Assembly: GCA_916048095.2 (NCBI GenBank)
Contig: OU696589.1
Location: forward strand, 7,703,683-7,767,682
Source of the DNA: Sacculina carcini
Taxonomy: Eukaryota > Arthropoda > Thecostraca > Sacculinidae
Direction: 5' to 3'
DNA length: 64,000 nucleotides
Shown: one piece after another, positions 1 to 48,277 of the stretch
How positions within the stretch are numbered: the first letter of the stretch is position 1
Layout of the letters: each line of letters opens with the position of its first letter
Made by a program: the position numbers and the translations under genes
The notes under the pieces: model-generated
Database searches by the model: none
The model's input: only the letters and a program-made list of their open reading frames with translations
Told to the model about the DNA's origin: nothing

Positions 1-2
1 TC

Positions 3-1002: not shown

Positions 1003-1600
1003 TCAACAATAAATATGTGATTCAGTAAATAACAGCCATAAATAAATAAGAATAAATATTAATAAATAAGTAATAAATAACAATCAAGAACAATACATAT
1101 GATTCAATAAGAAACATCCAACAATAAATATAAATATGATTCAATAAGTAACAACAACACAAATAAATATGATTCAATAAACAATAACACCAATAAATAT
1201 GATTCAATAAACAACAACAACAATAAATATGATTCAATAAACAGCAACAAGAATAAGCAACAGCAACAATAATAAATATGATTCAATAAACAACAACAAC
1301 AATAAATATGATTCAATAAACAGCAACAACAATAAATATGATTCAATAAACAGCAACAACAATAAATATGATTCAATAAACAGCAACAACAATAAATATG
1401 ATTCAATAAACAACAACAGCCAACACTGAGTAAAAGTATAATTTAATAAATAACAACAACCAATAATAAATCGTAATACATAGAGAGTAAAATAGGAATA
1501 AATATAAATAAATAGAAAATAAATAACAATAAGCATGAATAAATAACAATAAGCATGAATAAATAACAATAAATATGAATAAATATACAATTAATAAGAC
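1003..1600. repeat. AT-rich minisatellite, ~30-bp period
   Basis: Tandem copies of AATAAATATGATTCAATAAA plus a CARCAACAAC spacer run from about 1130 to 1425. They are flanked by degenerate AATAACAATAAG repeats to 1590. On the minus strand the array directly follows the stop of the CR1/L2-like LINE at 1608, so it is either the expanded 3' tail of that LINE or the satellite it inserted into. The copy at 62584-63140 has one 30-bp unit fewer. Confidence 0.8.
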
Positions 1601-1607
1601 TCAACAG

Positions 1608-4600
1608 TCAATTCCGCTCTTTCAGTAGCATTTCATTTACTTTGGCCTTGAATTTGTTCAAATTGTTCTGCGAGAAAGCCTCCTCCTTCAACGTGTTCCA
1701 AGTAGACACAGTGGCCGGAAGAAAGCAACGTTGGAATTGTTTTGTACGACAACGAATTGGAGCCATGCACTGGGGATGCTGTTTGGATGTAAACCGTGTG
1801 CTTCTTGCTGCCACGAAATCATCAGGAATTGACTTGCTCATCGGATGATGGTCGTTGTGCTTGATCTTGTACAGCATGCACACGCTGCTGACCTTTCGAC
1901 GATGGCAAAGATCACCAAGAACCAAGTCACCACAGAGGAACTTGGAAGTTCTAACAACTCTGTTGATGAGATTGAGTTGACAATCCGCAGCAGAAGACCA
2001 CACAGGGGCGCAGTACTCCAGAATTGGCAAAATGAAACAGCGAAAACAAGTTTTTGAGATTGTGCTGCTACCGAACATCCGATATGCCTTTCTTATAATT
2101 CCCAGTTTCCGCGATGCCGAACAAACTAGCTTCCGAATGTGACTCTCAAACGTCAGCTTTGAGTCTACATGTACTCCCAATATTTTGAGCTCATCACACA
2201 CGTTGAGTTGGGCGTCATTTATGAGGATAGCTCCATGTGAAGGCTGAACGGTACGTGACCTAGAAACCAACAAGCATTTAGATTTCGAAGTGTTCAGCAT
2301 CATATTCCACCTCTCACACCACTTCAGGACGCTGCTGAGATCGTCGTTGACCGTTTGACGCACCTGTGGTCTGTCCGAAGGAGATGAAATTACAGCCATC
2401 AAGGTGATATCATCAGCATATCCATATACAGGGTTGCGTGTGGTTGTGTACAGGTCAGCGGTGTAAATGTTGAACAAAATAGGACCCAACACACTTCCCT
2501 GCGGGACACCGGACACAATGCTCTGCCAGCCACTGTATGCTCCATCGATGGCAACACGTTGTACGCGATTGGATAGAAATTGATGCAAAACACTTAGCAA
2601 ACGGCCGCCGACTCCAATGTTTCTCAGTTTTTGCAACAAGCCCTGGTGGCTCACACGGTCAAATGCTGCCGAGAAATCCAACTGCACAATCCAGGCTTCA
2701 CTGCCTTTGTCTAGCACTTGCTGGAGCTCATGCGTGATAGTAAGCAGAGCGTCAGTCGTGCTGAGTTTTTTGCGGTATGCAAATTGGTTTTCCGACGGCA
2801 GATTGTTGCTCTCCAGGTACTTGGACAGTCTGGAAGATATCAAGTGCTCGAATATTTTGGACATAATCGGCGTAATTGATATTGGCCGGTAGTTTGCAAC
2901 ATCAGCTGAATTGGTTCCTTTTGGTATGGGCGTGATATTCGCAACCCGCGAACATGATGGAAACGAACCAGTCTTCATCAAGCGCCTGAAAAGAGCACTG
3001 AGCTTCGGAGCTAGAGTATCTGCCGTGTTCTTGAAAAATAGCGGAAACATATTCAGAGGGTCTGTTCCTCCGTGGGCATCAAGGTCTTTCATGAGATTCG
3101 CCACTTCTTTTGATCGGAAGGCAATGCCTTTGATTTTCGGGGCGAGGACAGATGAATCGTCAGACGGAATGGACCCTTGACATTGCTTGGTATCGAAGTA
3201 ATCCATAAGCAACTCTGCCTTCTCTGTTGGGTTGATTTTGAGCTCACCGTTCGCTGAAAATAAAGGAGGGACAGACAGGTCATGTCCAAACACTGGCGAT
3301 TTCAACGTTGACCACCATTTGTGGGTGTCATTGGCAGATGTTAGCTTTTCAGCAAGTTTCTTTGAGTGACGTGTTTCTGCTTCTGAATACACATGCTCAG
3401 CATGCCGTCTGGCCTCAGTGTAGACATTCCATGAATCGGCTGAGCGTGATTGGAGCCACTTGTGGTAAGCCTCCTGCTTGGATTCACGTGCGCTGCGACA
3501 TTCGTTGGTGAACCAGGCTTTGTCATCAGAGCGAAAACGTAGTTTTTCAGTAGGCACTCTCCTTGAGATGACATCGGTAATGTATTTGTTCAATGCATCG
3601 ATGGGGCATTCCTTCTGCTGCAGATTTGAAACTTTAATTGCTTTCAATTCATCATTCACCTTCACCCAGTCAACATTGTTCTTCATGTGCACGAGCCTTG
3701 AAATCGTGTAAGGAGAAACTTTCTGTCTCAATGTCAGCTTCACGGACAGCGACGAGTGATCTGAACTTCCTATTGGAGCTTCCACGTTTACACTCACGAT
3801 ATCTGAGACGTCTGTCATAACCAAGTCCAAACAGTTTCCCGCTTGATGTGTGGGACCGGACACCATTTGGGAGCAGCCAAAAATGTTGCAGAAATCATAT
3901 GATGCTCTACCATGAGCGTCTGTAGGAGATGTCGACAAGAGCCACTCACGGTGATGGGCGTTCATGTCCCCCACAAATACAAACGCTGACTTGGTGTCCT
4001 TCTCCTGAATTGTTGACATGGCTGACAAGATACATTCGTAGATAGAGTCGTTACTGTCTGGATTTCGGTAGGCTCCAAAGATGTAAAAATTCATCAAGGC
4101 GGTGTTGACACGCAGCAGCATAACTTCATGACAAGTGCAGTCGTGCGCTGTAATTCACGTTGCTGAAAAGCCTTTGCGTACGTACACTGCCATGCCACGC
4201 CGCCTGTTTTTTGAGTCACGTTTGATTAGCAATGGCTTACTGAAACCTGGCATCAAGGGCTCAGATTGGTCCCGATAATCGGACACACGCGTTTCGGCAC
4301 AGATAACGATGTCCTTGGAGCGACTGGCTGCTGTCAAATCTCTGATGTGCTTATACAAGCCCCTGATGTTGGCGAAAAGTATATTTGAAAATCGTTTTTG
4401 TGGTCGAGCGGGACCGGGATTCATTTCAACATCGCCACACATCATCAGCAGAAACGACAAATCCACGGTGTGAGAAGGCACACACACAACGCAAAGCAGA
4501 CATACAAATAAACACATAATGCACGACGCATGCGAGCACAAAAACACAACACATAACACATACATACGAAATGTCACAACAAAATACAAGCATACAACAC

Positions 4601-4916
4601 ACACAATACAAAGCAAACATACACACAAATACACACACAACAAGAAAAACACTAGAAAACACATGTGAGAACAATTTATTGAGAGCTCATTGTTAAACAC
4701 ATATCGCAAGGCAAAATGTCCAATGGGCGACCACAAAGACAGAGTATGAGAGAAACACAGAATTAGTTGGCACCTCAGTGCGAGGAAAGAGCTGGGCGCT
4801 GACGGAAAACGGGAAAACCGGCCGTTAGCCGTCGGGGCGGGGCTACAATTTTCGGCCCGCCTCATCAACAAAACAGACATGAGACAGAAAATAATACATA
4901 TATCCATGAACAGCAC
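1608..4916 (-). pseudogene. LINE ORF2: 2A-like leader, APE endonuclease, reverse transcriptase, one in-frame stop
   Basis: Residues 1-253 (4916-4158) contain a very hydrophobic Cys/Val/Leu-rich stretch, a 2A-like motif (GDVEMNPGP) and the start of an APE-type endonuclease (ANIRGL, ICAETR). A TGA at 4155-4157 then interrupts the frame, and reading continues in the same frame to 1608 with the rest of the endonuclease (GDMNAHHREW, CLDLVMTD, GSSDHSSL) and an RT carrying NYRPISI, QLDFSAAFD, SGVPQGSVLGP and the catalytic YADD. The RT is otherwise intact. The same stop is present in the other full copy (36127-36129), so it predates the duplication. Without readthrough the RT part would need internal initiation. 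Confidence 0.85.
4410..4436 (-). other. 2A-like ribosome-skipping motif GDVEMNPGP
   Basis: Nine codons match the 2A core consensus D(V/I)ExNPGP. The motif lies after a hydrophobic segment and just before the endonuclease. 2A-like motifs at this position are known in APE-type non-LTR retrotransposons, where they separate a leader peptide from the enzyme part by ribosome skipping. Activity here is inferred, not shown. Confidence 0.8.
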
Positions 4917-5390
4917 TTATATTTATAGACAAAGTTAAATTAAATAATATACAAACTGAACTGAAAAGTGACGAAAAAGAATGTGATGAGATAATTCAGC
5001 AGGAAGATTGCAAAGCAACTATGGCTGCGAACCCTGATTCTCAATCACATTCATAAACAAAATATATAAATTGAAACAAAAGAAAGATTAATTGACTTAA
5101 ACAGTCTTAAAAGTAAATGAATGAGCTCGCAAGAAGAAAATATCCGCCTTTAAAAAGGCAAATATTATCAATGAACAAAACGAGTAATGAAAAATCTAAA
5201 TAACGCTAAATCAAATATAATAATAAAACAACTGAAATATAACTCAGGGAACACTCAGCGTTAGCAGAAAGCAGGATCTGTCGTCGGTGAGCGTCAGCGA
5301 AGCGTAGACAGCCGGGCGCGAACGAGCGACGGAAAACACGTGCACACTCAGCGAGGGTTAGTCAGAGACTGAAATATATATTTAGATATT

Positions 5391-5677
5391 TAGATATGAT
5401 AATCCCAGCTCGACTATAGCCCATGGCGGGGTTATGCTGGCTGTTCGCACCAGTGTACCCTGTCGCCGCCTGCATATTCAGTCAGATTTGCAGGTGGTTG
5501 CGGTTCGGTGCTATCTCGGTGGTAGGGAGGTGAGTGTGTGCTCATTGTTCCTGCCGCCTGGTCGCCCGTTCCCAAGGGCTGACGTTCGAGTTTTTAATCA
5601 GTTCACTTTCACCCCCTTTGTATGTGTTAGGCGATTTTAATGCTCACAGCCCTTTTTGGGGTTGTGATGCATATTGT
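5391..5677 (+). pseudogene. I-type LINE endonuclease fragment fused to gag
   Basis: It matches 7110-7393 of the longer element and encodes part of the APE endonuclease (LAVRTSVPCRR, VLGDFNAHSPFWG). A one-base insertion near 5586 shifts the frame relative to the longer copy. The fragment ends at about 5677, where gag sequence begins. The frame happens to stay open across the join, giving an endonuclease-gag fusion from 5534. Confidence 0.75.
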
Positions 5678-6838
5678 GATGCGCTAGAGGGTGTCGATGA
5701 TGAGGAGATTTGCGACGGATTGGCATCACAGGGTGTCATCCGCGTGGAGCGCATCGTCCGACGGCGTGAGGGTAGCGAGGTGCCAACGCACTTCTTCTTC
5801 CTCACGTTTGACGGTGCTGATCTCCCGGACGACATCAAGATCGGTGACATACGTCAGCGTATCCGAGTCCGCCCCTACGTGTCTAACCCGATGCGGTGCT
5901 ACAGGTGCCAACGTTTCGGACATAGGAGCTCCCGCTGTAACCGTGCTGAGATCTGCGGACGCTGCTCATCAGAACGGCTCACCGCTGCTGATTGCGACAA
6001 TGAGTATTTCTGCGTCAATTGCAGGAGCAGCGGTCATGCGTCCTCGTCGCGTGACTGCCCGGAATGGCTGAAAGAAGAAGAAATTCTGGCTATTCGCGCT
6101 GCCCGGCGCTGCAGTTTCGGCGAGGCGCGTGCTGTATATCGCAGCTCGCATCCATCAGGCCCGTCCTATGTCGGCGTAGTCACGAAGTCGGCTCAGCCGC
6201 CACAGTCTGTCGACTCGTTTCTGGAGAAGCTGACTGTTGGAGACTTCTTGAAGCTATCGGGACGAATGGGATTGAAGCTGGTCGTACCTGAGGCTGACAA
6301 ACATGAGCATGAACCAACACCGGTTGATCGGCGGTCTGAGGGGACTACCGTGCCGCAGTCGCCAACGGCCGCACCCCAGCGGTCCCAGGCGTCCGCGACC
6401 CAGCGGCCCCAGACGGCCGCTCCCCAGCAGCCTGAAAAGGCTGCTGAACGGCGACCTGAGCGGGTCGCCGATCGGCCGGTCAACCGGCCGACGGACCGTG
6501 CTGGCAAATCGGCAGCGATGCCATTCAGTCAGGGCGGCAAAAAACCGGCCGCTCAGCAGGCTTCCAAGCCAGCAGAGCGGACGACTCCGAGCCGGAGGAA
6601 ATCCGGAGACTGGACGGTGGTTCAACACAAGAGCCGCCGTTCAGTCAAGTCAGCCTCGCCGAGGAGTGACCGGCGAGCATCTCCCGGTCACAAAGAGAGA
6701 GCGGTGCCTGCTTCTCCGCGCTCGGCGGCTGCTAGCGCACCCCCTTCCGCACACGACGAGCGACTCCCACCACTGCCATGGATGTGTAGAGTACCTCTAA
6801 GCGGAAGATCTCGGCCTCTTCAAGTGGGTTCCACATGA
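5534..6838 (+). pseudogene. I-type LINE ORF1 (gag-like), N terminus replaced by endonuclease sequence
   Basis: The open frame is 434 aa. Residues 1-48 derive from the endonuclease fragment upstream. Residues 52 onward are gag: a conserved region (GLASQGVIRVERIVRRREGS), a CCHC knuckle (CYRCQRFGHRSSRC), two further Cys-rich motifs (CGRCSSERLTAADC and CVNCRSSGHASSSRDC), then a long Pro/Arg/Ser-rich basic tail. The protein would bind element RNA in an RNP. The native N terminus (RRM-like region, seen at 31302-31778) is lost. Of the copies here this one has the most complete zinc-finger region. Confidence 0.8.
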
Positions 6839-9800
6839 CGCGGAGAGAGGATGATCGGCCAAGCGATGCGATTAGGTACCTGTGCTACCTGGTTTTTAGT
6901 GTATATGTGCCTTTCTAACGGGAGTATTTATTTGTATTTTATTGTATTATATTTATTTTTATGTCCATTTTACAATGGAATATTAGAGGTATTAGACCGA
7001 ATTTTAATGATTTACTGCATATTTTACACTCCCGACAACCATAGATTTTAGCAATACAGGAGACTAAGCTTTTAACTTATTCGTATTTTAGTATTCAGGA
7101 TTTTAATGTCTTTAGATATGATAATCCCAGCTCGACTATAGCCCATGGCGGGGTTATGCTGGCTGTTCGCACCAGTGTACCCTGTCGCCGCCTGCATATT
7201 CAGTCAGATTTGCAGGTGGTTGCGGCTCGGTGCTGTCTCGGTGGTAGGGAGGTGAGTGTGTGCTCATTGTACCTGCCGCCTGGTCGCCCGTTCCCAAGGG
7301 CTGATGTCGAGTTATTAATCAGTTCACTTTCACCCCCTTTGTATGTGTTAGGCGATTTTAATGCTCACAGCCTTTTTTGGGGTTGTGATGCATATTGTAG
7401 CCGTGGTTATATCATGGAGGATATTTTAAATGTTTTAGACATAGGTATTTTAAACACAGGCACATATACGCATTGCGCCATGCCATCGGAAAGCATGTCC
7501 GCTCTGGACCTCAGTCTGTGCAGTCCCAGTCTGCAGGCATCCACGAGCTGGACCGTTGAGAACAGTCTGTATGGAAGTGACCACTTCCCTATATGGATCT
7601 GTCTCAATGAGGTACCTAGGTTTGAAACACGACCACCGAGATGGAATTTCAAACAAGCTGATTGGGTCCGCTATGATTGCTTGACACTGGAAGCCATGAG
7701 CAACCCCACACTTCGACCCAGCGTCGAAGATTTTACTGAAGCCATTGTCACCTGTGCCGAACAGAGCATTCCGCGTACGGCATCGCGTCCCCGGCGGCGT
7801 CCTGTTCCTTGGTGGACAGCCGCGTGTTCTGTGGCGTTGCGAGAGCGACGTCGTTGCTGGGGTCGCTTCCGGCGCAACAGCACGGTGGCAAACATGCTTT
7901 GCTTTCGCCATGCTCGCTCACAAGCTCAATGGACCTTTCGTGAGGCGAAGCGGGCCTCGTGGGTGTCCTATGTGTCCAGCATTAATCGGGACTGTCCAAT
8001 ATCCACCATATGGGACCGTATAAAGCGCATCTCTGGGAAGTACCGTCCCACTCCACTGCCTTCTCTGAAGATCAGTGGCGTGGACGTGATAAATCCGGAG
8101 CATGTTGCTGACGAAATTGGCCGATATTTAGCGGAGCGCTGTCGTGCAAACGTAGGCGACCCTGATTTTGCGGCGATCAAACAGCAGTGCGAGAGATCAC
8201 CCGTTGATTTCTCCACCAACTGTCAGCTACCAATCAACAGCGATTTTTCTGTATCTGAGCTGAGAACAGCCTTGCGATCGCTTCGCGATGTGGCTGAAGG
8301 CCCTGATGAGGTTCACAACCTCATGCTGAAACGTCTGTCGCCCGCAGTGCTGTCCACCTTGCTGCAGGTCTTCAATGATCTGTGGAATGGTGGTCAGTTT
8401 CCAGCCTCCTGGCGACGGGCAATTGTGATACCCATCACGAAACAGGGCAAATCGGGCGATCACCCGTCTGACTATCGCCCGATATCGCTGACCTCCAGTC
8501 TCTGCAAACTGTTTGTGAAAATGATTTGCAGACGGCTGGTATGGTTTCTGGAACGCGGTTGGCTGTTAAATGATGCTCAGTGCGGATTTCGCCAGGGTCG
8601 CTCAACTTTAGACCACCTGGTGACCATCGACTCTCGCTACGTGAAAGTTTCACGCCAGGTCACCACGTCGGGGCGATATTCTTTGACATCTAAAAGGCAT
8701 ATGTCACCACATGGCGACATGGAATTCTTCGCAAACTGCATCGCTGTGGTGTTAGAGGCAACATGGAGAGGTTCGTACACAATTTCCTTTTGCACCGCAC
8801 ATTCAGTGTGCGTGTGGGGAACTCCCTGTCTCGTCCGATTGATCAGGCAGAAGGCGTTCCACAGGGTAGTGTGCTCAGCGTGGCACTTTTTGCCATAATG
8901 ATCAACGACATTGACAATCATTTGCCTCCCTCGATTGGACGGTCTCTCTCTGTGGACGACTTCGCCGTATGGTGTTCTTCCCGCAGCACTGCTGCTGTCC
9001 ATTCGTCAACTGTAGCTGGCGGTGAATAAGATAAAGACTTGGGGAACGCGTAACGGCTTCCGCTTCTCGACGTCCAAAACGGTCGGTGTACACTTCTGCC
9101 GCCGTCGAGGTGCCTGCCCTGACATGGAAGTGAAATTGTACGGCAGTGCTGTCTCATTCCAACGCACGGTTCGGTTTTTAGGGGTCACGCTGGACTCGCG
9201 CTTGACCTACAAAGACCATATTTCACAGCTGAGAACCACATGTCTAAAGGCACTGAATGTGCTGAAAACTGTTTCCCACATGCGGTATGGAGCAGATCGA
9301 CAGTCTCTTCTCCTTCTGTACCACTCGTTAGTCAGGTCGCGTCTCGATTACGCAAGCATCGTATATGATCTGGCTTCGCAGTCAGCAAAAAGTCGTTTGA
9401 ATGTCGTACACCACGCAGGGATACGCATTGCCACTGGCGCGTTTCGCACGTCGCCAATCGTCAGCCTCCTTGTTGAGGCTGATGAGGCTCCGCTGGCGCT
9501 CCGTCGTCAAGAGCTGGGCATGCGTTATTCTTGCATGCTGGCAAGCACCCATGAAAACCCCGCGTATGACGTGGTATCTTCCCAGCATGTGCCTGAGCAG
9601 CAGCACCTTCCAGGACCTCAGTGTTCTGTGCTGTTTTGCAGCAAAATGAGGGCACTGCTGGAGTCATGCGGGATGGGTGCTAACGACGTCCTCAGACAAG
9701 AATACACGGCGGAGTCACCCTGGAAGTTGGTCACACCCGAGGTCGACGTCTCGCTAGCAGCTCTGCCGAAACACCGTACAGTGCCCAGTGTGCTTCGCTC

Positions 9801-10845
9801 AAACACACTGGAGCGAATTCATTCTTAAGGACAGTATACTGCCGTGTACACTGATGGATCTAAGTCGGTCATTGGTGTGGGTTGTGCGTTTGTAAGTGGA
9901 GGTACGTGCCGCTCGAGCACGCTGCCACCGAGCGCTTCTATTTAATCGGCTGAACTTAACGCTATCCTGCTGGCCCTGGTTTTTATTCGCTCATCTTCAT
10001 TTTCATTGTTTTTAGTTTTATCCGACTCCCTTAGTGCTTTAAATTCATTGTCGTCATTCTCCTTACATCCTCTTATACAGAGCATTTTTTTCTCTCTTGA
10101 CATCATCCACTACCAGGACAAGCGTGTAAAGTTCTGCTGGATTCCGGCCCATATTGGTATTTTGGGCAACGAGCGAGCTGACAGAGCCGCAAAAAGAGCT
10201 GCTGAACGAGACTTTTATTCATTTTATTTTAACTTTCCCATTCCGTATTCGGACTTTTATCCTATTATACATCTTTTTTTCCGTTCTCGCTGGCAGCTCT
10301 CCTGGGACGAATGTGGTACTAACAAACTGAAAGCAATGAAGCCAGAAATCGGACATTGGATGTGCTCTTGTCGCCGGAAGAGGTCCGAGGAAGTTGCGCT
10401 CTGTCGTCTGTATGTGGGTCACACGTACGACACGCATCGCCATCTTCTACTCGGACAACCTGAACCCATTACGTGCAGCGCATGTAATGCACGTCTCTCC
10501 GTGCAGCACATCCTGGTGGAATGTCCAGCATTCTCAGAGGCGCGTCAACGTTTTCTTGGATTCGTTCGGACTACTGACGAGGTTCTTGGACAGGAGCAAT
10601 CGGCGGTCATTGACGGCCGCATTTATAAATTGTTACGGCTTTTGCCTTTTAAAATTATTTATTTATTTTTATTCTTCTAATTTTCATATTCATATCACTC
10701 ACCCTCACGCATATTTATTTCATCGCTCCATTACGTCCATTACGTTCATATGCATAGTTTTTGTTTAATTTAGACAGACTGGGGGGTGCCATATGGTCCT
10801 AGAGGCCGGTGCACCCCAAAAACTCAATAAACAAACAAACAATCA
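5678..10845 (+). mobile_element. I-type non-LTR retrotransposon (gag, EN, RT, RNase H), 5'-truncated and dead
   Basis: Plus-strand LINE with a CCHC gag ORF1, an ORF2 with endonuclease, RT and a C-terminal RNase H, and a 3' end with CAATAAACAAACAAACAA at about 10826-10843. Presence of RNase H points to the I superclade (I, LOA, R1, Outcast or similar) rather than Jockey proper. The gag N terminus and 5' UTR are missing here but are preserved at 31070-31778. It carries several nonsense and frameshift mutations. Confidence 0.8.
6961..10680 (+). pseudogene. I-type LINE ORF2: endonuclease, RT, RNase H, zinc knuckle; multiple breaks
   Basis: It starts at ATG 6961 (MSILQWNIRGIRPN), the usual beginning of an APE endonuclease. 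The order is endonuclease (GDFNAHS, ALDLSLCS, YGSDHFPIW) to about 7620, RT fingers/palm (ADYRPISL-type SDYRPISLTSSLCK; CGFRQGRST), motif A (AIFFDI), motif B (GVPQGSVLS), a YxDD-type box reading SVDDF, RNase H (YTDGSK, SAELNAI, LSDSLSAL, GNERADRAAK) and a C-terminal Cys/His finger (CSACNARLSVQHILVEC). Breaks: TAG at 7042-7044; a one-base frameshift near 8637; TAA at 8691-8693 directly after the motif A Asp; return to the first frame near 9022; TAA at 9826-9828 and 9943-9945. Not functional. Confidence 0.85.
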
Positions 10846-11582
10846 TCTCTTCAATTCGAATAATAGCGATGAAAAATTCAATAAACTCAGTTGTTACATA
10901 AAAGTGAATGCCAAGAGGTCATTAGAAACAAAAATAAATTTATTTGAATTGATAATAACACGCATTTGTTCTTCTGTCCGACATTTGGAATTCAACTTGG
11001 CAACTCTTCCATTCCCCACCAGTGATACATCTTGCATAGATTTAGAACCACTGCCGTATCGCTCATATTATCGCACGCGGCAACCACTGATAATAGAAAT
11101 TATAAATGTGTTGAGGGTTGTAGGAATTTTTGCTTTCAATAATTCAATTTTCATCGTCCATCAATCATAGTGATATATGATTGGCTTAAACCGCGACCAG
11201 CCAATTCTACGAAGCCGGTTGATGAGCTGCAATAATGAAAAAACGTTGAATATTTGTTTGAATGTATTGAATTGCACCCAATATGTGTACAAGGTTTATA
11301 TAGTACACATGGGGACAATTGTGTTGTCCATGTAGTTGTATTTTTGTTCATGTAGCTACGTGTACATTGTGGGTGCATGTTGATATGTCGTGGCGGTGTT
11401 GGTGACCTAGATGGTGATGGTAATTAGGAATGTTCTGGTCATTATGATTTGGATGATGGCGAACATAATATGGATAATGATGGTGGTAATATCCTTACAA
11501 GCAAGCAACCCGCCCACACACAGTCAACCGCGACGACAAGAGAACAGCGTATGCCGGTTGGTGGTAACACGCGGTGCTCGAG
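10846..11582. other. Region between the LINE and the kinase gene; no recognised gene
   Basis: AT-rich sequence. An open frame at 10793-11170 (125 aa, plus) begins inside the LINE 3' end and shows no motif I recognise. Composition and lack of a credible start argue against a gene, although the frame is kept in unit 2 (42356-42733), as expected for a recent duplicate. From about 11400 GATGATGG-like triplets appear, related to the repeats of the adjacent ORF. Any 3' UTR or poly(A) signal of the kinase gene should lie here. Confidence 0.5.
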
Positions 11583-11649
11583 CTACATCATCAACGGGTT
11601 CACATAATTGAAGCCGTCAAACTGTCTCTGGTCGATTTGTTCGACAGAC
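11583..11649 (-). pseudogene. Out-of-frame remnant of a further aPKC C-terminal tail
   Basis: Read in another frame from the ORF ending at 11600, this stretch encodes [19 protein letters not shown] followed by TAG at 11583-11585. That is the aPKC tail motif seen after every kinase repeat. It implies that the array once ended with a proper tail and lost a kinase unit in a way that shifted the frame. The same remnant is present in unit 2 (about 43147-43213). Confidence 0.7.
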
Positions 11650-14600
11650 ATGATGATGATGATAATGGAGATGGGAGTCGTGCAGATGGTGGGGATGATG
11701 GCGGTGATAGCGATATTAGCAACGGGTTGACATAATCAAAACCGTCAAATTGGCTCTGGTCAATTTTTTCAATGGTGCTTGTGTTGTCGGGTGTTAGCCG
11801 CGCCGGCTCGTCTGTGAAGAGGGACGGAAAGTTGGCCAGATCACGTTCGGTCTTGACGCGTGGCTTGTACGGCGGCTTCACTTGCTTCCGCACCAAAAGC
11901 TGCCAGTCAACACTGTTGAAAAACTCATGCCCAACGATGTCTTTGAAGCCGGTGTTCGGATGACAGCCCAGTCGCTCTATCGGGTTCTTTTTTAGAAGAC
12001 CTCTCAGGATTTTGCGCGCATTCGCCGACAAAGAGGGCGGAATGCGGATGGTCTTTTCGAGAATTATCCGATACAGATGGTTCTTGGTTTTCTCATTGGG
12101 TTCTTTAGAATGATGGCCAATCTCGAACGGAATGCGATTAGTGAGCATCTCAAACATGAGCACGCCCAGCGACCACCAATCAACACTGAAGTTATATTTC
12201 TTGCCAAGCAATATCTCCGGCGCGATGTAGTGGGGTGTGCCGCAGAAGGTGGACGTTGTTTTACCTGGTCGCATTCCTTCCTTGCAAAGGCCGTAGTCGA
12301 TAAGTTTAATATGTCCCTCGTGGTCGATCAGCACATTTTCCAGCTTCAGATCACGATGGATAATGCCGTTATCATGCAGAAAATTAAGCGCCAGGCACAG
12401 CTCCGCCGAGTAGAACTTGACGTGCTCCTCCGGTAGTTTGCCGTGACGCTCCATATGATTCATGAGGTCGCCACCGCGCACAAACTGAATCACGAAGAAC
12501 AGCCGACTGGGACTTTGGAAGCACGAGTGCAGTCCCACCAGGAACGGGTGGTTGAACGCCATCTTAAACACGTGTGTCTCTGTCTGCACGCGGCCGATAT
12601 CCTTGGTATTCTTGATCAGCTTCTTCTTGATCGCCTTCATGGCGTAGACGCGCCGAGTGCGTCGTAACTCCACCATCATCACTTTGCCGAATCCGCCGCG
12701 TCCAATCACGCGGATCAGATCAAAATCGGCCAGCGAATACTGATTTGGGAGAATGGCCGCGGCCCCAGCAGGAACCAGGTCCACACTGGCCGTTTTAGTA
12801 ATGGTAGGGACGACGACGAGAGCCGGCTCAACCGCGTCAACTCCAACTTTGGCCGGTATCTTCATCGACTTAGTGGTGGTGTTGGTGTGGAGTTTACCGT
12901 TGGTTGGGTCACAGCGCAGATGCTTCTGTGCCACTGGTTTGCCAGTGTGCTTTCCCTTCAATAACTTGTTACGCGAAACAAGACTCAATGTAGGGTGACG
13001 AGCAAACGGCGACGGTTGTAGCGGAGATGAATGTCGTGATGGTGATGATAAGGGAGATGGGAGTCGTGCATATGGTGGGGATGATGACGGTGATAGCGAT
13101 ATTAGCAACGGGTTGACATAATCAAAACCGTCAAATTGGCTCTGGTCGATTTTATCAATGGTGCTTGTGTTGTCGGGTGTAAGCCGCGCCGGCTCGTCTG
13201 TGAAGAGGGACGGAAAGTTGGCCAGATCACGTTCGGTCTTGACGCGTGGCATATACGGCGGCTTCACTTGCTTCCGCACCAAAAGCTGCCAGTCAACACT
13301 GTTGAAGAACTCATGCCCAACGATGTCTTTGAATCCGGTGTTCGGATGGTAGCCCAGTCGCTCTATCGGGTTCTTTTTTAGAAGACCTCTCAGGATTTTG
13401 CGCGCATTCGCCGACAAAGAGGGCGGAATGCGGATGGTCTTCTCGAGAATTATCCGATACAGATGGTTCTTGGTTTTCTCATTGGGTGCTTTAGAATGAT
13501 GGCCAATCTCGAACGGAATGCGATTAGTGAGCATCTCAAACATGAGCACGCCCAGCGACCACCAATCAACACTGAAGTTATATTTCTTGCCAAGCAATAT
13601 CTCCGGCGCGATGTAGTGGGGTGTGCCGCAGAAGGTGGACGTTGTTTTGCCTGGTCGCATTCCTTCCTTGCAAAGGCCGTAGTCGATAAGTTTAATATGT
13701 CCCTCGTGGTCGATCAGCACATTTTCCAGCTTCAGATCACGATGGATAATGCCGTTATCATGCAGAAAATTAAGCGCCAGGCACAGCTCCGCCGAGTAGA
13801 ACTTGACGTGCTCCTCCGGTAGTTTGCCGTGACGCTCCATATGATTCATGAGGTCGCCACCGCGCACAAACTGAATCACGAAGAACAGCCGACTGGGACT
13901 TTGGAAGCACGAGTGCAGTCCCACCAGGAACGGGTGGTTGAACGCCATCTTAAACACGTGTGTCTCTGTCTGCACGCGGCCGATATCCTTGGTATTCTTG
14001 ATCAGCTTCTTCTTGATCGCCTTCATGGCGTAGACGCGCCGAGTGCGTCGTAACTCCACCATCATCACTTTGCCGAATCCGCCGCGTCCAATCACGCGGA
14101 TCAGATCAAAATCGGCCAGCGAATACTGATTTGGGAGAATGGCCGCGGCCCCAGCAGGAACCAGGTCCACACTGGCCGTTTTAGTAATGGTAGGGACGAC
14201 GACGAGAGCCGGCTCAACCGCGTCAACTCCAACTTTGGCCGGTATCTTCATCGACTTAGTGGTGGTGTTGGTGTGGAGTTTACCGTTGGTTGGGTCACAG
14301 CGCAGATGCTTCTGTGCCACTGGTTTGCCAGTGTGCTTTCCCTTCAATAACTTGTTACGCGAAACAAGACTCAATGTAGGGTGACGAGCAAACGGCGACG
14401 GTTGTAGCGGAGATGAATGTCGTGATGGTGATGATAAGGGAGATGGGAGTCGTGCATATGGTGGGGATGATGACGGTGATAGCGATATTAGCAACGGGTT
14501 GACATAATCAAAACCGTCAAATTGGCTCTGGTCGATTTTATCAATGGTGCTTGTGTTGTCGGGTGTAAGCCGCGCCGGCTCGTCTGTGAAGAGGGACGGA

Positions 14601-17600
14601 AAGTTGGCCAGATCACGTTCGGTCTTGACGCGTGGCATATACGGCGGCTTCACTTGCTTCCGCACCAAAAGCTGCCAGTCAACACTGTTGAAGAACTCAT
14701 GCCCAACGATGTCTTTGAATCCGGTGTTCGGATGGTAGCCCAGTCGCTCTATCGGGTTCTTTTTTAGAAGACCTCTCAGGATTTTGCGCGCATTCGCCGA
14801 CAAAGAGGGCGGAATGCGGATGGTCTTCTCGAGAATTATCCGATACAGATGGTTCTTGGTTTTCTCATTGGGTGCTTTAGAATGATGGCCAATCTCGAAC
14901 GGAATGCGATTAGTGAGCATCTCAAACATGAGCACGCCCAGCGACCACCAATCAACACTGAAGTTATATTTCTTGCCAAGCAATATCTCCGGCGCGATGT
15001 AGTGGGGTGTGCCGCAGAAGGTGGACGTTGTTTTGCCTGGTCGCATTCCTTCCTTGCAAAGGCCGTAGTCGATAAGTTTAATATGTCCCTCGTGGTCGAT
15101 CAGCACATTTTCCAGCTTCAGATCACGATGGATAATGCCGTTATCATGCAGAAAATTAAGCGCCAGGCACAGCTCCGCCGAGTAGAACTTGACGTGCTCC
15201 TCCGGTAGTTTGCCGTGACGCTCCATATGATTCATGAGGTCGCCGCCGCGCACAAACTGAATCACGAAGAACAGCCGACTGGGACTTTGGAAGCACGAGT
15301 GCAGTCCCACCAGGAACGGGTGGTTGAACGCCATCTTGAACACGTGTGTCTCGGTCTGCACGCAGCCGATATCCTTGGCATTCTTGATCAGCTTCTTCTT
15401 GATCGCCTTCATGGCGTAGAGGCGCCGAGTGCGTCGTAACTCCACCATCATCACTTTGCCGAATCCTCCGCGTCCAATCACGCGGATCAGATCAAAATCG
15501 GCCAGCGAATACTGATTTGGGAGAATGGCCGCGGCCCCAGCAGGAACCAGGTCCACACTGGCCGTTTTAGTTATGGTAGGGACGACGACGAGAGCCGGCT
15601 CAACCGCGCCAACTCCAACTTTGGCCGGTATCTTCATCGACTTAGTGGTGGTATTGGTGTGGAGTTTACCGTTGGTTGGGTCACAGCGCAGATGCTTCTG
15701 CGCCACTGGCTTGCCAGTGTGCTTTCCCTTCAATAACTTGTTACGCGAAACAAGACTCAATGTAGGGTGACGAGCAAACGGCGACGGTTGTAGCGGAGAT
15801 GAATGTCGTGATGGTGATGATAAGGGAGATGGGAGTCGTGCATATGGTGGGGATGATGACGGTGATAGCGATATTAGCAACGGGTTGACATAATCAAAAC
15901 CGTCAAATTGGCTCTGGTCGATTTTATCAATGGTGCTTGTGTTGTCGGGTGTAAGCCGCGCCGGCTCGTCTGTGAAGAGGGACGGAAAGTTGGCCAGATC
16001 ACGTTCGGTCTTGACGCGTGGCATATACGGCGGCTTCACTTGCTTCCGCACCAAAAGCTGCCAGTCAACACTGTTGAAGAACTCATGCCCAACGATGTCT
16101 TTGAATCCGGTGTTCGGATGGTAGCCCAGTCGCTCTATCGGGTTCTTTTTTAGAAGACCTCTCAGGATTTTGCGCGCATTCGCCGACAAAGAGGGCGGAA
16201 TGCGGATGGTCTTCTCGAGAATTATCCGATACAGATGGTTCTTGGTTTTCTCATTGGGTGCTTTAGAATGATGGCCAATCTCGAACGGAATGCGATTAGT
16301 GAGCATCTCAAACATGAGCACGCCCAGCGACCACCAATCAACACTGAAGTTATATTTCTTGCCAAGCAATATCTCCGGCGCGATGTAGTGGGGTGTGCCG
16401 CAGAAGGTGGACGTTGTTTTGCCTGGTCGCATTCCTTCCTTGCAAAGGCCGTAGTCGATAAGTTTAATATGTCCCTCGTGGTCGATCAGCACATTTTCCA
16501 GCTTCAGATCACGATGGATAATGCCGTTATCATGCAGAAAATTAAGCGCCAGGCACAGCTCCGCCGAGTAGAACTTGACGTGCTCCTCCGGTAGTTTGCC
16601 GTGACGCTCCATATGATTCATGAGGTCGCCGCCGCGCACAAACTGAATCACGAAGAACAGCCGACTGGGACTTTGGAAGCACGAGTGCAGTCCCACCAGG
16701 AACGGGTGGTTGAACGCCATCTTGAACACGTGTGTCTCGGTCTGCACGCAGCCGATATCCTTGGCATTCTTGATCAGCTTCTTCTTGATCGCCTTCATGG
16801 CGTAGAGGCGCCGAGTGCGTCGTAACTCCACCATCATCACTTTGCCGAATCCTCCGCGTCCAATCACGCGGATCAGATCAAAATCGGCCAGCGAATACTG
16901 ATTTGGGAGAATGGCCGCAGCCCCAGCAGGAACCAGGTCCACACTGGCCGTTTTAGTTATGGTAGGGACGACGACTAGAGCCGGCTCCACCGCGACAACT
17001 CCAACTTTGGCCGGTATCTTCATCGACTTAGTGGTGGTGTTGGTGTGGAGTTTACCGTTGGTTGGGTCACAGCGCAGATGCTTCTGCGCCACTGGCTTGC
17101 CAGTGTGCTTTCCCTTCAATAACTTGTTACGCGAAACAAGACTCAATGTAGGGTGACGAGCAAACGGCGACGGTTGTAGCGGAGATGAATGTCGTGATGG
17201 TGATGATAATGGAGATGTGAGTCGGGCAGATGGTGGGGTTGATGGCGGTGATAGCGATATTAGCAACGGGTTGACATAATCAAAACCGTCAAATTGGCTC
17301 TGGTCGATTTTTTCAATGGTGCTTGTGTTGTCGGGTGTTAGCCGCGCCGGCTTGTCTGTGAAGAGGGACGTAAAGTTGGCCAGACCACGTGTGGCCGCGT
17401 CTGTCGCCTCGGTCGCGGTCCCAACAGGAACCAGGTCCACACTGACCGTCCCTTTGCTGGTGGGGGCGACCACGAGAGCCGGCTCCACTGCGTCAACACC
17501 AACATTGCCCGACTTAGTGGTGGTGTCGGTGTGGGGTTTACCGTTGGTTGAGTCAGAGCGCAGATGCATCTGTGCGGCTAGCTTTCCGCTAGCTGTGCCG

Positions 17601-18067
17601 CTATTGCGCTTTCTCTTCAATAACTTCTTAAGCGTACCGTGACGAAGAAATCGCCACGGCTTAAGTAGCGGAGATGATGGCGATGATGATACTGGTGATG
17701 ATGGTGGCGATAGTGTGACCGCTTCCATCGACTCGGTCGCTGTCCCAGCAGGAACCCGGTCCACACTGATTGTCCCTTTGCTGGTGGGGACGACCACGAG
17801 AAGCTTCTCCACCGCGTCAACGCCAACATTGCCCGACATCTTCATCGACTTAGTATTGGTGTCGTTGTGGAGTTCACCATTGGTTGAGTCAGAGCTCAGA
17901 TGTGTCTGCGCCACTATCTTGCCTGTGCGTTTTCTCTTCAATAACTTATTACGCGAAACAAGACTAAAGGTAGCGTGACGAATATATCGCGTCGGTGCAA
18001 GTAGCGGAGATGATGGTGGTGATGTTGACGATTGTGGTGATAATGGTGATGATGATGATTGTTGTGG

Positions 18068-18099
<32 letters not shown>

Positions 18100-19801
18100 G
18101 TGGTGATGATGATGATGATGATGATTGTGGTGATAATGGTGATGATAATGATTGTGGTGATGATAATGATGATGATGATGATTGTGGTGACGATGGTGAT
18201 GATAGTCGTGGTAATTGTTGTGGTGATGGTGACGGTAGGGTCTGAACGTCCTCGGTTTGCACGCATTTGGACTGCAGCATACCCAGCGAGACTCTGCTCA
18301 AATCATGTAAATCTCTCCCGCATCCAAAATCTGGAGGCCCTGCATCATTTTTTGTGTCGGTCGACCTGCGCGTGCCGCAGCGTGACCGGTGAACTTCATC
18401 TGCCTCGCCGGTGACGTTGAGGAGAATCCGGGACCCTCGACATGTCAGATATGTAGTGGAACAGTACCGCATCTGTTCCGCTGTCCAAACATGCCCACGG
18501 TTCTTCAGCTGGAGGACCTGTGGCGACGCCCGGTCGAGATGGCCGGTCCGCTGGTCGCCTGGCAGCATCGGCTTGGCTGGTCCGAGGAAGGGCTGCGGGT
18601 CTCCTCGGTACACAACAACTGATGGGAGGGTCGACGACGATGGTGATGGTGGTGGTAGTGGTGAAGGTGATGGTAGTGGTTGTGGTTGTGGTAGTAATGA
18701 TAGTGATTGTGATGATGGCGGTGGTATTATCAAATCACTGGACATTGACAGTGAGACGTCACTTTTTACACAAACCACTTTATCGGCTGCATTTCTGCTC
18801 TTTCTACCGATATCGTTGTTCGTAGATTTCCTAACGTCTTCGTTGGCTTGATGTTTGTTCATTACACTGTCTGGACATATGATTTCTATCAGATCTGCCT
18901 TTAACATTTCACTGGAGAGCATTACTGTTCTGCTTATTGGCTGTATGTCACACTGACGGCTAGATATTCCGATATCCTCACAAACATCCCAGTTGAGTAT
19001 CCGAGGAATATCAGAATAATCGATGTATGGTGATCGAGGTCCAGGCTCATGGAAATTCGTGACTAGTTTGCTTAACTGACCAATCTCACGCGTGCTGATA
19101 TCCATGTAGCGAACTTCTTGAATTGCTGCGCTGACATACGGGTTGATTTTGGCCAGCTTTTTCAAAATGCCCATAATGGTGGTTGCAGTGGCCTCTTGCT
19201 GGATAAAGTCCACGCAACGTACCAGTACCAGGGTATTATCCCGATCCAGCACAATTTTGCTGAGTGTTTGCCTCTCGCTGACTATTGCTTTGAGGCAGAG
19301 TACACATTCGTTTAACACCTGTTGTGCATTGGCCATCCGAGTGGTCTTTTTGGTGTTTGATGTTTTGAAGATCTGCATAAAGCAGTTTTGAACGGCTGTT
19401 TTCTCTTTTTGGTCAACGCGTTCTTTGGCCGACAGTACAATATTCATGTAGTCGAGCAGAAAAATGACCCCTTGTTGCTGCTGTACAAACTCTAATTGCC
19501 ACCATCTGGTGTACATACGTAGCGAAATCTCCAAATCCTTAAGCAGAGTGGTATGCTTGCCACACATGGCGAGAACTTTGCTGGGCTTCTGGGTGATCAT
19601 TTTCGCCGAGTAGATCTTGATATAGCGCACATAGTACGCGGGACACTGGCGGATGGTCTTCCTCCAGTTGGAAAGCATGCTCCACTTTGAAGAGATGTTG
19701 TAGTGGACACATAGCTTTGCTGCCTCTTCGGTAACACCGATCCAGGCTAGGTGTTTGATGAATGCTTCATCAATATCGCTTTTGCTGTGCATTGCTTGCA
19801 T
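11600..19801 (-). CDS. Giant chimeric protein: FMNL-type formin GBD/FH3 domain fused to four tandem atypical-PKC kinase domains
   Basis: One uninterrupted 2733-aa frame without introns. The start ATG at 19799-19801 has A at -3 (ACCATGC) and an in-frame TGA 18 nt upstream. Residues about 8-260 resemble the Rho-GTPase-binding/FH3 armadillo region of formin-like (FMNL) proteins (KDLEISLR, the YYVRYIKIY block, [11 protein letters not shown]). No FH1/FH2 follows. Residues about 355-390 are Pro/Ser-rich and 520-600 Ser/Pro-rich, from a (TCA)n-type expansion. Two linker-only repeats follow, then kinase domains at about 969-1309, 1431-1771, 1893-2233 and 2355-2695, each 462 aa apart. Each has [28 protein letters not shown] (typical of aPKC), the PDK1-type loop [11 protein letters not shown], a turn motif (RLTPDN) and an acidic aPKC hydrophobic motif ([11 protein letters not shown]). 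All catalytic residues are present, so each domain should phosphorylate Ser/Thr. The fusion suggests a multivalent kinase scaffold recruited by a Rho-type GTPase, which is inference. The C-terminal linker ends in a frame different from a residual C-tail (see 11583-11649). Confidence 0.85.
11715..17258 (-). repeat. Four tandem 1386-bp coding repeats (linker, aPKC kinase, C-tail)
   Basis: Kinase-plus-tail segments lie at 11715-12739, 13101-14125, 14487-15511 and 15873-16897, exactly 1386 bp (462 codons) apart. The intervening linkers encode Ser/Pro-rich sequence and a conserved block beginning [18 protein letters not shown]. The repeats differ by only a few substitutions (for example VGVV, VGVG and VGVD in the linker; ERLGY or ERLGC in the kinase), which indicates recent amplification or homogenisation by unequal exchange. 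Period divisible by three keeps the frame open. Confidence 0.95.
18000..18240 (-). repeat. (GAT/ATC)n trinucleotide expansion coding a Ser/Pro-rich run
   Basis: Nearly pure GATGATGATTGTGGTGAT-type sequence on the plus strand reads as [11 protein letters not shown] on the coding strand. It lies between the formin-like domain and the linker repeats. Smaller related tracts lie at 18640-18735 and at each kinase linker, so slippage of this motif probably drives linker length. Confidence 0.85.
18386..18622 (+). pseudogene. 2A-like motif plus CxxC frame antisense to the kinase gene; LINE N-terminal relic
   Basis: The plus-strand frame opens after a TGA at 18383-18385 and encodes GDVEENPGP at 18410-18436, an exact match to the 2A core, followed by [11 protein letters not shown] 2A core followed closely by a CxxC-type finger is the arrangement at the N terminus of several CR1/L2-clade LINE proteins. 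The frame closes at 18620-18622 with no endonuclease. It lies opposite codons about 455-464 of the giant ORF (the [14 protein letters not shown] segment), so the kinase gene appears to have absorbed antisense retroelement sequence. Not expected to be expressed itself. Confidence 0.55.
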
Positions 19802-20885
19802 GGTGTCTTCAGGTATTCACCTTCGACGCTAGATCAAAATTGACAGTGAGTGAAAACGATGATTCACTACCGCAATTCAGTTCGGGAATGACTGCGTCAA
19901 CCACAACCACTATACTCTTAATCTCGTAAATATTATTCCCGATGAAAACTCGTGGAAAACAGGTATTGGGCACTTGAGGTTAAAATAATTCGGTCAAAAT
20001 AATGATATAAAAATGTTTGTTTCACAGTTTTCAGGAGAACATATTACTCACAAAACTCAGATTTTGCTGTTTTTTAATTCATCCAAAAAACTATTTATTT
20101 CGTAAAAATATTCCCAATGAAAACTCGTGAAAAATAACTAATGGACACTTGCGGTTAGAACAATTCGGGCAAAATTAATCATATACAGAAATGTTTGTTT
20201 CAAAGTTTTTGTTGAGTATATAAATCTATATTTTACTCACAAAAACCAATTTTTTTTTATGTTTTATGTTAAAGACAATTTCTTTGCCATTCATAAAAAA
20301 ATATATCGAAGATAAACGTCGAAATGGACTGAACTGCTTCATATTGTGATAGCCGTAATACTTTATGATCATCTCATCGATTGAAATATCCCTGGTAAAA
20401 CCCCCAATGCCAACCTCAACCTAGAAGAATGTGAACCGTAACCTCATTGACAGCGAGGTCAAGGTCGTCCAGGAAGGACACAGCCTTGTTCATAGTTAGA
20501 TCACATTGTGCAGACATCATATTGAATAATAAGACATTTGAAATACATCCACTATACACGGTGTACCCTACGGCGCTCTCCGGCAGTGATCTATTTTTAG
20601 ATCACCATGAAAATCCTGGAAAATCAAAGTAAGTTTTGTATTCGTATTTCATCATGTATAATGGACTTTTATTTACGAACATGATCTAATTTCAATGAGT
20701 CAACTTCATTAATTTTATCGTGGCCGATTAATGTGTTAAACTCAGCCATATGTTTATGACCTCTACGATAGTCTTGTGTAATTTGTCATCCAGGTTTTAA
20801 GGAAAAACCGTACTTTTTATATCTTTTGCTTCCTGATTTTATGAGCTTGTCACCTTACCACCTTCTTTTTTCTTGCCTTATCAAT
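19802..20885. other. AT-rich upstream region of the kinase gene; no gene seen
   Basis: This is the 5' side of the giant ORF and should hold its promoter, but I find no convincing TATA box, initiator or splice site. There is an internal near-repeat: about 19940-20045 and 20100-20215 both hold ATTCCCRATGAAAACTCGTG followed by similar TTGTTTCA blocks, which suggests an old local duplication. Short open frames such as 20447-20632 carry no recognisable motif. The unit 2 copy has a 27-bp insertion made of AATTTTCGTGAA-like imperfect repeats. Confidence 0.5.
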
Positions 20886-20959
20886 CCTGTATGTGTATGT
20901 GTGTGTGTGTGTGTGTACTCACATAGTTGTACTCACATAGTTGTTCTACAGGATATGAG

Positions 20960-23900
20960 CTAAGCTCGTGCTGTCCCGTCTCTTTTCCATAATTTATCTA
21001 ACATAGTTTTGAAGGAACTTAAATTTCTAGCTTCAAATATTTTGCTGTCTAATTGGTTCCACTGATCTACGCTCCTAAACGGGAAACTATACTTTTTTAC
21101 ATATTTTCGACAACGTGTTTTCCTCAGTTTTTTTGAGTGTCCTCTACGCACATTTCCTTGAAAAACTAATCCGATGTCGTCTGTGTTGACCGTGTCATTC
21201 ATGCATCTATATATGTTTATTAAATCACCTCTTTCCCTCCTCTCATCAAGCCTGGGTAATTCAATTTTCCTCAATCTGTCCTCGTAAGACATGTTTTTCA
21301 AGTTTGGTACCAATTTTGTGGCTAGTCTTTGAATCTTTTCTATTTTTTTTATATGTCTCACTTCATGTGGAGACCAAACTACAGCTGCATATTCGATCTT
21401 TGGCCTAATTAGAGCTATCATGATTTTTTGAACATATTCTCATCCATGTAGTTGAATACTCCTCTCGTTTTTGAAATAAGTGCATACGACTTGGCGAAAA
21501 GGTCATCAATGTGCGCCTGCGGTGACAGATCATTCTGGATAATCACACCAAGATCTCGTTCCTTGTCCACCTCTCGCAGCGTGACGCATCCCAGTGCATA
21601 GTCCACAGATGGTCTCTTCCCGCTTTTGCCAAATTTCATGACATGACACTTTGTTTCGTTGAGGCTCATTAACCATTTTTGACACCATTCTTGAAGCTTG
21701 TCGATGTCACATTGCAATTGTTCACAGTCTCTCTTACTCGTTATGACTCTCATCAATTTGGCATCGTCGGCAAAAAGGTGAACGGTGCTGTCCAGATCGT
21801 TCGTTATATCATTGATATATATCAGAAACATTATTGGTCCGAGCACAGAGCCTTGTGGCACCCCACTTTTCACCCGCTTCCACGAAGAAGCCGCTCCCCT
21901 CACAGTTGTACTCATTTTTCTATCGGTCAAGTAATGTTCCATCCATTTCAATAGTGGTCCTTGTATTCCTCCACAATACTCCAGTTTCCACAGAAGCCTC
22001 CTGAATGGGACCTTGTCGAAAGCTTTGCACAAGTCCAAGTATATGCAGTCCACCCACTTGTCCCTCTCCTGTACAACATCAATAATTTTGTTGTAAAAGA
22101 ATAAAAGACTCGACACACATGATCTTGATTGTCTAAATCCGTATTGTGCATTTGACAAAACCTTTTCTCTCTCCAGGTGTTTTACCCACTGGTCCTTGAT
22201 GATTTTTTCACACACTTTACATATCACGCTGGTCAGTGATATAGGCCTGTAGTTGGATGATTCCTCTTTCGAGCCCTTCTTGTGAATTGGAACAATGCTC
22301 GAACATTGCCATTGTGAAGGAACTTCACCCAGGTGCAAGCTAGTACATATGACGTCATACAATGGCTCCGTCAACTCTTCCCTGCATTCCCTGATAATGC
22401 TCCCCTCAATTCCGTCTGGTCCAACCGATTTCCCATTCTTTAACTTCGACAGTCTCTCAATCAGATCTTTCTTAGATAAACACACATCTCCCATAGGCCT
22501 ACATTTCGGCAAGATTCGACTTCCATCAAAGGGACTTTCATCAGTGAACACCATGTGAAATTTATAATTCATAATTTCGCAGATTTTCTCTGGTTCAGTA
22601 ATGGTCTCGCCTTCATGTTGAATTCTTTCGATGCCCACGTAATTTTTCATCTTTCCGTTGACATACTTGTAGAACATCTTCGGTTCTTTTTCACATTTTT
22701 CAACTATACTTTTTTCATAATTCATTGTTTCTTCTCGTCTTATTTTCACGTAATTGTTTCTGGCTCTTTTGTACTCTTTCCAGTGCTCATAAGTATTTCT
22801 CTTTCGCAATATGTTCCATGCTTTTTCTTTGTCCTCTCTTGCTTTTTCACATCTTTTGTTGAACCAAACATTTTTCTTGGTGTATGATCTTTTTATTCGT
22901 GGAACATATCTTTCAACACCGAGCTTGTACACGTCAACAAAATGATCAAATTTTTGTTGAACATCCGTCATTGTCAACATAGCGGTCCAGTCGACCTCAT
23001 CAAAGTATCTCTTAAGCTGTTTTATGTTGGCTTTGTCATAGTTCAGTTTATCACCGTAGTATTTACGGGTACCTTTTGCAGGTTTTCCATACTCTAAAAC
23101 TGCCTCTATCAGCACATGGTCGCTTTTGCCAATTGGACTCTTATACGTCAACGATTTTATTATGTCCATTTCATCAGTGAAAACCAAATCTAGTTTTGAT
23201 GGCCCGTCTGAAACCCTGAATCGAGTATTCTCTTGAACCCACTGATTCCTGTAATTTTTCATCATCAGTGTCATAAGTCTTGAATTCCATGAGTTCGGTG
23301 ATCCGTTTGCGTTCCAATTTTGCCAGTCAACTTCCTTACAGTTAAAATCTCCTACAATTGTTAAGTTTTTGTACTTGTTCATCAGATAGCATAGTTCATT
23401 CAGAGTATCATTGAGCATTTCTTCAAACTCGTTCAGCTTCCATGAACTACTTCTTGGCGACACATAAACCGCCATGAAGTGTTTCACACTGTCCAAGAGT
23501 TTTATCTCTAACATTATTAATTCCGCCTTCATTCCAATATACACCGCTTTTGCATTAATATCGTCTCTTGTCAACACCATCACTCCCCCTCCCGCTTTTT
23601 TATTTCTATCCCTTCTGTATATGTTATACCTGCTATGAACCAAGCCTTGAACTACAATATCTTCTTTGAGTTTTGTTTCTACTCTAGCAACAATGTCAGG
23701 GTTTTTTCCACACAGGTATTCATTGAGCTCGATTCTACTCGACATATACCCGTCGATGTTTGTGTACATTAAGCTTGTGTGTGCCTTTCTGTCTGTTCCT
23801 TCGCATCCGTTGCTGCCATACGATACCATTTCTTGATTTTTCCGTGTACCAACTTCCAATGAAACTCCTTTTTCTCTTCCTCCGTCAGTTTCTCGTTTTT

Positions 23901-33572: not shown

Positions 33573-33579
33573 TCAACAG

Positions 33580-48245: not shown

Positions 48246-48277
<32 letters not shown>

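Follow-up and report, generated by a model that had tools for sequence, protein, structure and literature searches.

The window described here is the whole 64,000-nucleotide stretch, at C24:7703683-7767682 in an assembly that has 43 contigs and totals 264 Mb. Its minus strand carries a gene, copy A, that reads as one open frame of 2,733 codons without an internal stop, preceded by an in-frame TGA that begins 18 bases 5′ of the ATG. The encoded protein joins the GBD/FH3 head of an FMNL formin to four catalytic domains of atypical protein kinase C (aPKC), and a second gene in the window, copy B, has the same head and three kinases. The two genes and the parts of copy A are as follows.

11600..19801, minus strand: copy A, a single-frame gene of 2,733 amino acids (aa) with a formin GBD/FH3 head, hinge repeats and four aPKC kinases (open reading frame (ORF) and Pfam)
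19007..19801, minus strand: FMNL-type GBD/FH3 (armadillo) head, residues 1-265 (Drf_GBD at 5-216; FMNL1/FMNL2 in PDB; family alignment)
17402..17956, minus strand: two copies of the hinge repeat with no kinase attached, residues ~616-800 (52% identity over 84 columns and 49% over 79 columns to the C1-kinase hinge of native aPKC)
17267..17431, minus strand: lone aPKC C-terminal tail 5′ of kinase 1 (Pkinase_C count; tail motif positions)
15911..16879, minus strand: aPKC kinase 1 and tail (Pfam; PDB search; motif positions)
14525..15493, minus strand: aPKC kinase 2 and tail (Pfam; motif positions)
13139..14107, minus strand: aPKC kinase 3 and tail (Pfam; motif positions)
11753..12721, minus strand: aPKC kinase 4 and tail (Pfam; motif positions)
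11583..11651, minus strand: former aPKC C-terminal tail that has a stop of its own and lies beyond a TCA run, out of the present frame (the C20 copies read keep it in frame)
19802..19940, minus strand: 5′ flank common to members on other contigs, one FH2-bearing member included (alignment)
43164..49979, minus strand: copy B, 2,271 aa, same head, three kinases (ORF, Pfam, motif positions)

Both sides of this join were recovered by profile and structure-database searches. The isolated N terminus of copy A scored 33.2 bits for Drf_GBD against a cut-off of 30.1 (E 4.9e-8); within the whole protein the score was 25.4 bits (E 1.2e-5), under the cut-off, and no separate Drf_FH3 Pfam match to copy A was found. 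In PDB, the head matched FMNL2 (7.6e-9) and FMNL1 (1.9e-7) and nothing further up to E 10, and it scored 29.3 bits with an FMNL1/2 profile, the best among 200 shuffles reaching 7.9. Its identity to human FMNL2 is 21% (63/295 aligned). Pfam placed four Pkinase stretches on the copy A protein (E 1.2e-277) together with Pkinase_C tails, which number five against the four kinases, and the best PDB match of a copy A kinase was PKC iota with 460 bits, the next PKC group scoring 298 bits. PB1, C1 and FH2 were not listed by Pfam for either window protein at E up to 1. Together, these results confirm the original prediction of an FMNL-type head followed by four aPKC catalytic domains in one frame, with FH2, PB1 and C1 gone, and they support its interpretation in part. 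Because one defining feature of each class was looked for and is absent, we assign the window protein to neither the formins nor the aPKCs. Literature searches, which left most subscription papers beyond their reach, gave no recognised description of a formin head joined to an aPKC array, in line with the original claim.

The kinases of copy A recur every 1,386 bp, and the apparent linker between them is the native aPKC hinge between C1 and kinase, including the last C1 residues (70.6% identity across 425 columns that extend through kinase and tail). These final residues before the hinge are all that the alignment finds of C1 in copy A. The lone hinge copies are extra hinge repeats, two in copy A and more in the C20 copies. 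The native aPKC on C8 occupies two frames, one with PB1 and the other, of 505 codons, with C1, hinge, kinase and tail. Identity to human PKC iota is 81% for the native kinase and 63% for the window kinase, and the two kinases of this genome share 74% identity. The original aPKC tail, which lies 3′ of the copy A stop, ends the protein in the C20 copies read. Kinase retroposition was rejected as the sole explanation, because the native gene already has C1, hinge, kinase and tail in one frame. Across the family members compared, 38 of 44 kinase units match a pattern for intact catalytic motifs (G-loop, YAMK, HRD, DYG, activation loop, APE); this count covers 18 of the 19 kinase frames given, includes near-identical copies, and comes from a pattern that missed L029 and misjudged at least L031. 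Some units carry DYH in place of DYG, or an altered activation loop. One locus, L043:2-3169, has two aborted kinase starts and then one kinase with an altered activation loop.

The architecture is real in copy A, and the original prediction is incomplete in that copy A is not a singular case but one locus of a large family with differing payloads, in which some relatives keep FH2. With the whole protein as query, copies were found on C24, C19, C6, C31 and C20. The copy A head gave at least 121 matches (121 scored among 193 candidates), the head of a distant member at least 147 (147 scored among 184 candidates; 133 without an internal stop), human FMNL2 at least 130 (153 candidates) and the kinase at least 123 (all 123 scored among 499 candidates; native aPKC on C8 included). 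These counts are lower bounds, and matches are not genes, as there are frames with two heads and genes in pieces. Three of the FMNL2-query matches are exons of the ordinary FMNL gene, and a fourth is situated on C21, ~20 kb away from pieces of a different formin's FH2; the remainder coincide with the head family when the listings are compared by eye. The same architecture is open in five further copies on C24, C19, C6 and C31 (2,244-2,282 aa), one of them copy B. Six copies were read on C20, where two additional head loci lie outside that set: five are open (2,525-2,892 aa) and the sixth has an in-frame TAG in the head.

Thirty-five head-bearing frames were read for their payloads, both window copies and several near-copies among them; L008, L009 and a C20 copy at 3.38 Mb, whose heads are incomplete or broken, stand outside this set. 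The payload is an aPKC kinase in 21 frames (including the shortened or partly degenerate L007, L043 and L044), FH2 in three, a C48 protease (Ulp1/SENP-like) in four and a PI-PLC-X-like domain in one; none was recognised in six, four of which were scanned with Pfam and two judged by eye. Kinase number per member ranges from 1 to 4 across loci. Pfam supports kinase and Drf_GBD, the latter sometimes below cut-off, in the two window copies and four others, the rest being assigned by sequence and motif. FH2 was identified by Pfam in two members (E 3.3e-52 and 7.8e-44), while searches of the genome and of PDB identified it in the third, and in one member it is of FMNL type (FMNL3 126 bits versus DIAPH1 74). 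The C48 domain was found by Pfam in three members (E 3.2e-15 to 8.4e-13) and by genome search in the fourth, with SENP1 as a PDB match (2.5e-7); 11 of the 18 C48 matches in the genome fall in frames of 631-759 codons with a co-located head match. The assignment of the PI-PLC-X-like payload is based on a Pfam E of 0.079, below cut-off, a PDB E of 2.8e-4 and two histidine motifs seen by eye; its branch has three head loci at 98-100% head identity, with the payload read in one. L045 and L046 are, by eye, short frames with little besides the head. Another locus, L042:137-4123 on C9, combines two formin heads within a single frame; a long tail rich in S, P, Q and R follows, with no recognised payload.

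The ordinary FMNL gene lies at C20:8.159-8.180 Mb, its exons spread over more than 20 kb and 61, 67 and 77% identical to human FMNL2. Unlike this split parent, the FH2-bearing members have head and FH2 within one frame; most simply, therefore, the family founder would have been an intronless FMNL copy. A head tree was built from 25 family rows and human FMNL2, excluding the near-copies L002, L003 and L007, one C20 copy and the partial L041, and predating L042-L046. A single branch sets the 15 aPKC rows apart, and their neighbour is an FH2 member (100/100). The four C48 rows group together (97/94), the PLC member joins L034 and another FH2 member in a group that is drawn open (87/92), and the outgroup and two payload-less members have branches longer than 1.5. 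By eye, ~95-150 bp of 5′ flank can be aligned between the window gene and ten members elsewhere, namely nine kinase members located on other contigs and the FH2-bearing L024; the flank of the PLC member aligns weakly. This common flank suggests that flank and head were retained through changes of the 3′ payload, and that the later spread was by DNA duplication. The divergence order and mosaic sites of the kinase units would fit unequal crossing-over and conversion.

Across comparisons selection is mostly purifying, with dN/dS mostly 0.2-0.6 and a few recent pairs at 0.8 or above. For kinase and tail of the seven window units, 11 of 28 variable sites change the amino acid, against 20.3 expected in neutral simulations with the same transition share (0 of 3,000 as low); in the hinge part the figures are 7 of 15 and 10.9 (p 0.029). 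Window unit pairs gave dN/dS of 0.08-0.35 in 20 of 21 cases, and 15 kinase units compared with native aPKC gave 0.17-0.25. Between members, values were 0.24-0.57 for heads (12 comparisons), 0.29-0.58 for kinases (6) and 0.22-0.30 for C48 (4), and the head of the window branch against the C20 copies gave 0.20-0.57. The original prediction had offered both a clustered kinase and a titrating decoy; catalytic motifs under purifying selection would favour enzyme function.

From these computed features (architecture, parents, family, payload classes, 5′ flank and selection) we infer GTPase binding, activity and expression, and we consider it probable that the window gene is functional, belongs to a lineage-specific, FMNL-founded family and encodes a head-addressed, Par-6-independent aPKC array. 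An intronless FMNL copy would have founded the family; in several descendants its FH1-FH2 part would have been swapped for other enzymes, the 5′ flank and GTPase-binding head being retained. In the window branch the native aPKC gene would have supplied the replacement, its stretch of hinge, kinase and tail, which unequal crossing-over would then have brought to between one and four units. Par-6 docking of aPKC goes through PB1; with PB1 lost, docking by that route should therefore be lost as well. The head may instead dock at the cortex on an active Rho-family GTPase or a formin partner, which would concentrate there an array of aPKC catalytic domains that have neither C1 nor the PB1 needed to dock on Par-6. 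The outcome would be GTPase-addressed, Par-6-independent, multisite phosphorylation of cortical substrates. A wider proposal, that a single FMNL-derived GTPase-homing head with interchangeable enzyme payloads (actin nucleator, aPKC array, SUMO-protease-like and PI-PLC-like) at well over 100 loci forms an arsenal that reprograms the cortex, polarity and signalling of a target cell, possibly a host's, we regard as tentative and rather unlikely.

Several observations weigh against the functional, head-addressed array. FMNL2 residues named for Cdc42 contacts are E111, D219, H222, R261 and E360 (PMC4432619, from the part of the paper available). Among these five only E111 is kept in the copy A head; D219, H222 and R261 are replaced by Q, N and A, and E360 falls in an unreliable stretch of an alignment that is poor in its C-terminal part. 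Basic membrane-patch residues are kept at 4 of 12 positions, no N-terminal MGxxxS myristoylation motif was found (copy A begins MQAMHSK), and modelling the head structure from a single sequence gave no usable result (pLDDT 34.5). The predicted GTPase-recruitment module is plausible by sequence, the head keeping the FMNL core with one of the five contact residues, and its partner may be a GTPase or a formin partner. Support for the aPKC clade is 81/54, and some family members are broken or have altered motifs. Selection is also uneven: residues 261-530 are weakly constrained (dN/dS 0.62-0.83), the pair of first kinases A1 and B1 has five non-synonymous changes and one synonymous (1.57), some head pairs inside the window's branch reach 0.53-0.80 on few changes, and, again on few changes, C20 copies give 0.56-0.84 for kinase 1 pairs and 1.16 for one kinase 2 pair.

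Among the other explanations, a decoy or titration family, in which the head competes with FMNL for a GTPase, or the kinase units bind aPKC substrates or partners, and catalysis is secondary, seems unlikely. It would suit the short frames L045 and L046, the two-head L042 and the units with DYH or altered activation loops. A natural precedent is Multiple Wing Hairs, which like the window gene has a formin head without FH2 and which, as far as the available text goes, differs in having no enzyme payload and no large swapped-payload family (PMC5047451). However, the 38 units with all tested motifs, the mainly synonymous changes and the low dN/dS of the C48 payload speak for retained catalysis. 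That the proteins are effectors of a parasitic arthropod in host cells, the head addressing host GTPases and the payload being swapped in an arms race, is a distinctly doubtful reading. Copy number, tandem arrays and payload variety would fit it, and in a 298-Mb rhizocephalan draft genome the two most strikingly expanded families involve protein-kinase genes, according to the accessible part of the report (PMC9582164). No signal peptide is evident by eye at the N terminus, however, and the same text gives Scr and abd-A as missing, whereas homeoboxes named by eye as Ubx-, Antp-, Scr-, Dfd- and ftz-like occur here on C25 and an abd-A-like one on C16. With this mismatch the rhizocephalan genome is no more than a lead to the source, and the Scr-like and abd-A-like homeoboxes were the reason not to accept Sacculina carcini as established.

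LINE- and Gypsy-type frames flank genes that are intronless and present in many near-identical copies, as would be expected of a multicopy sequence carried by a transposon or virus and lacking a cellular function. Such an origin is nevertheless very improbable: head, kinase and C48 payload are mostly under purifying selection, both parents are cellular genes of the same genome, no viral gene was recognised in the 10 window ORFs scanned, three of which lack a Pfam match, and no relatives of the gene turned up in viral contigs, phages or prokaryote genomes in searches by short exact peptide matches or tblastn. An assembly artefact or pseudogene we consider scarcely credible. Two copies that are 99% identical, lie 32 kb apart and differ by one kinase unit might raise that suspicion, but all seven window kinase units are free of stops and frameshifts, and diverged full-length copies with the same architecture are open on other contigs, so the head-kinase join is no one-off assembly error.

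Read as a functional head-addressed kinase, the window protein can be set beside known systems. With the FMNL formins (FMNL1-3, Drosophila Frl) it shares the GBD/FH3 armadillo head, and one family member has an FMNL-type FH2; it differs in its lost FH2, absent myristoylation motif, low head identity to FMNL2 and single frame. With PKC iota/zeta it shares the catalytic domain, DYG, activation loop, turn motif, acidic FDGFDYVNP tail and hinge, and differs in having a formin head in place of PB1 and C1 and, in the family, one to four catalytic domains. The C-terminal payloads of two sister branches resemble SENP/Ulp1 SUMO proteases and, on weaker evidence, PI-PLC-X proteins, each here joined to a formin head. 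The Rho-effector kinases PKN, ROCK, MRCK and PAK each have a Rho-GTPase-binding part and one kinase, their GTPase-binding domains being unrelated to the formin head; by analogy, the window protein may work in a similar way. In Drosophila lamellocytes, Cdc42 and Rac2 act upstream of Frl/FMNL, according to the available part of PMC13395357. The family could therefore be viewed as a natural experiment in domain grafting, in which a putative Rho-GTPase address tag has been placed on polarity, SUMO and lipid-signalling enzymes while sister genes keep the original FH2. Its members offer a way to test how a scaffold head can redirect a kinase in the absence of Par-6, whether output is tuned by the number of kinase copies, and why selection retains so many such genes in one genome. 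Should the source prove to be a parasite, the family would be a candidate effector system.

The two window genes lie in a duplicated segment.

1..21964: duplicated segment with copy A (99.2-99.8% identity of its main pieces to 31964-52169)
31964..52169: duplicated segment with copy B (alignment to 1-21964)

Around the genes, at window positions 1608-4121, 7156-8898, 21418-24006 and 52526-55411, lie frames of LINE type (endonuclease/reverse transcriptase) and one Gypsy-type pol frame; 33580-36093 duplicates the frame at 1608-4121, which is the one of the pair that the Pfam scan covered. Seven of the 10 ORFs scanned matched, all to transposon types. An endogenous nimavirus or other virus was rejected as a source, as no Pfam match in the window is viral; nor does the accessible text of the nimavirus paper (PMC10871703) mention such a gene. 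Rfam found nothing in the window, and PF02949 gave no match, a weak negative because the tool's controls were unable to register. Upstream of copy A lies a 72-bp direct repeat (82%; 19929-20000 and 20104-20175). Four gene copies, one with a TAG in the head, occupy C24 7.686-7.779 Mb, a stretch that includes the window and lies less than 100 kb from the contig end; the last 2 kb of C24 hold no tandem TTAGG triple. The abd-A-like homeobox (L056, C16:677811) is in a frame that departs from the homeobox after WFQ, the other Hox genes being on a different contig. The arthropod-type telomere repeat is abundant in the assembly, which makes an arthropod the probable source, (TTAGG)7 giving 9,340 and 10,013 overlapping matches on the two strands against 0 for the backward control, and (TTAGG)n arrays also occur away from contig ends, as seen on C1.

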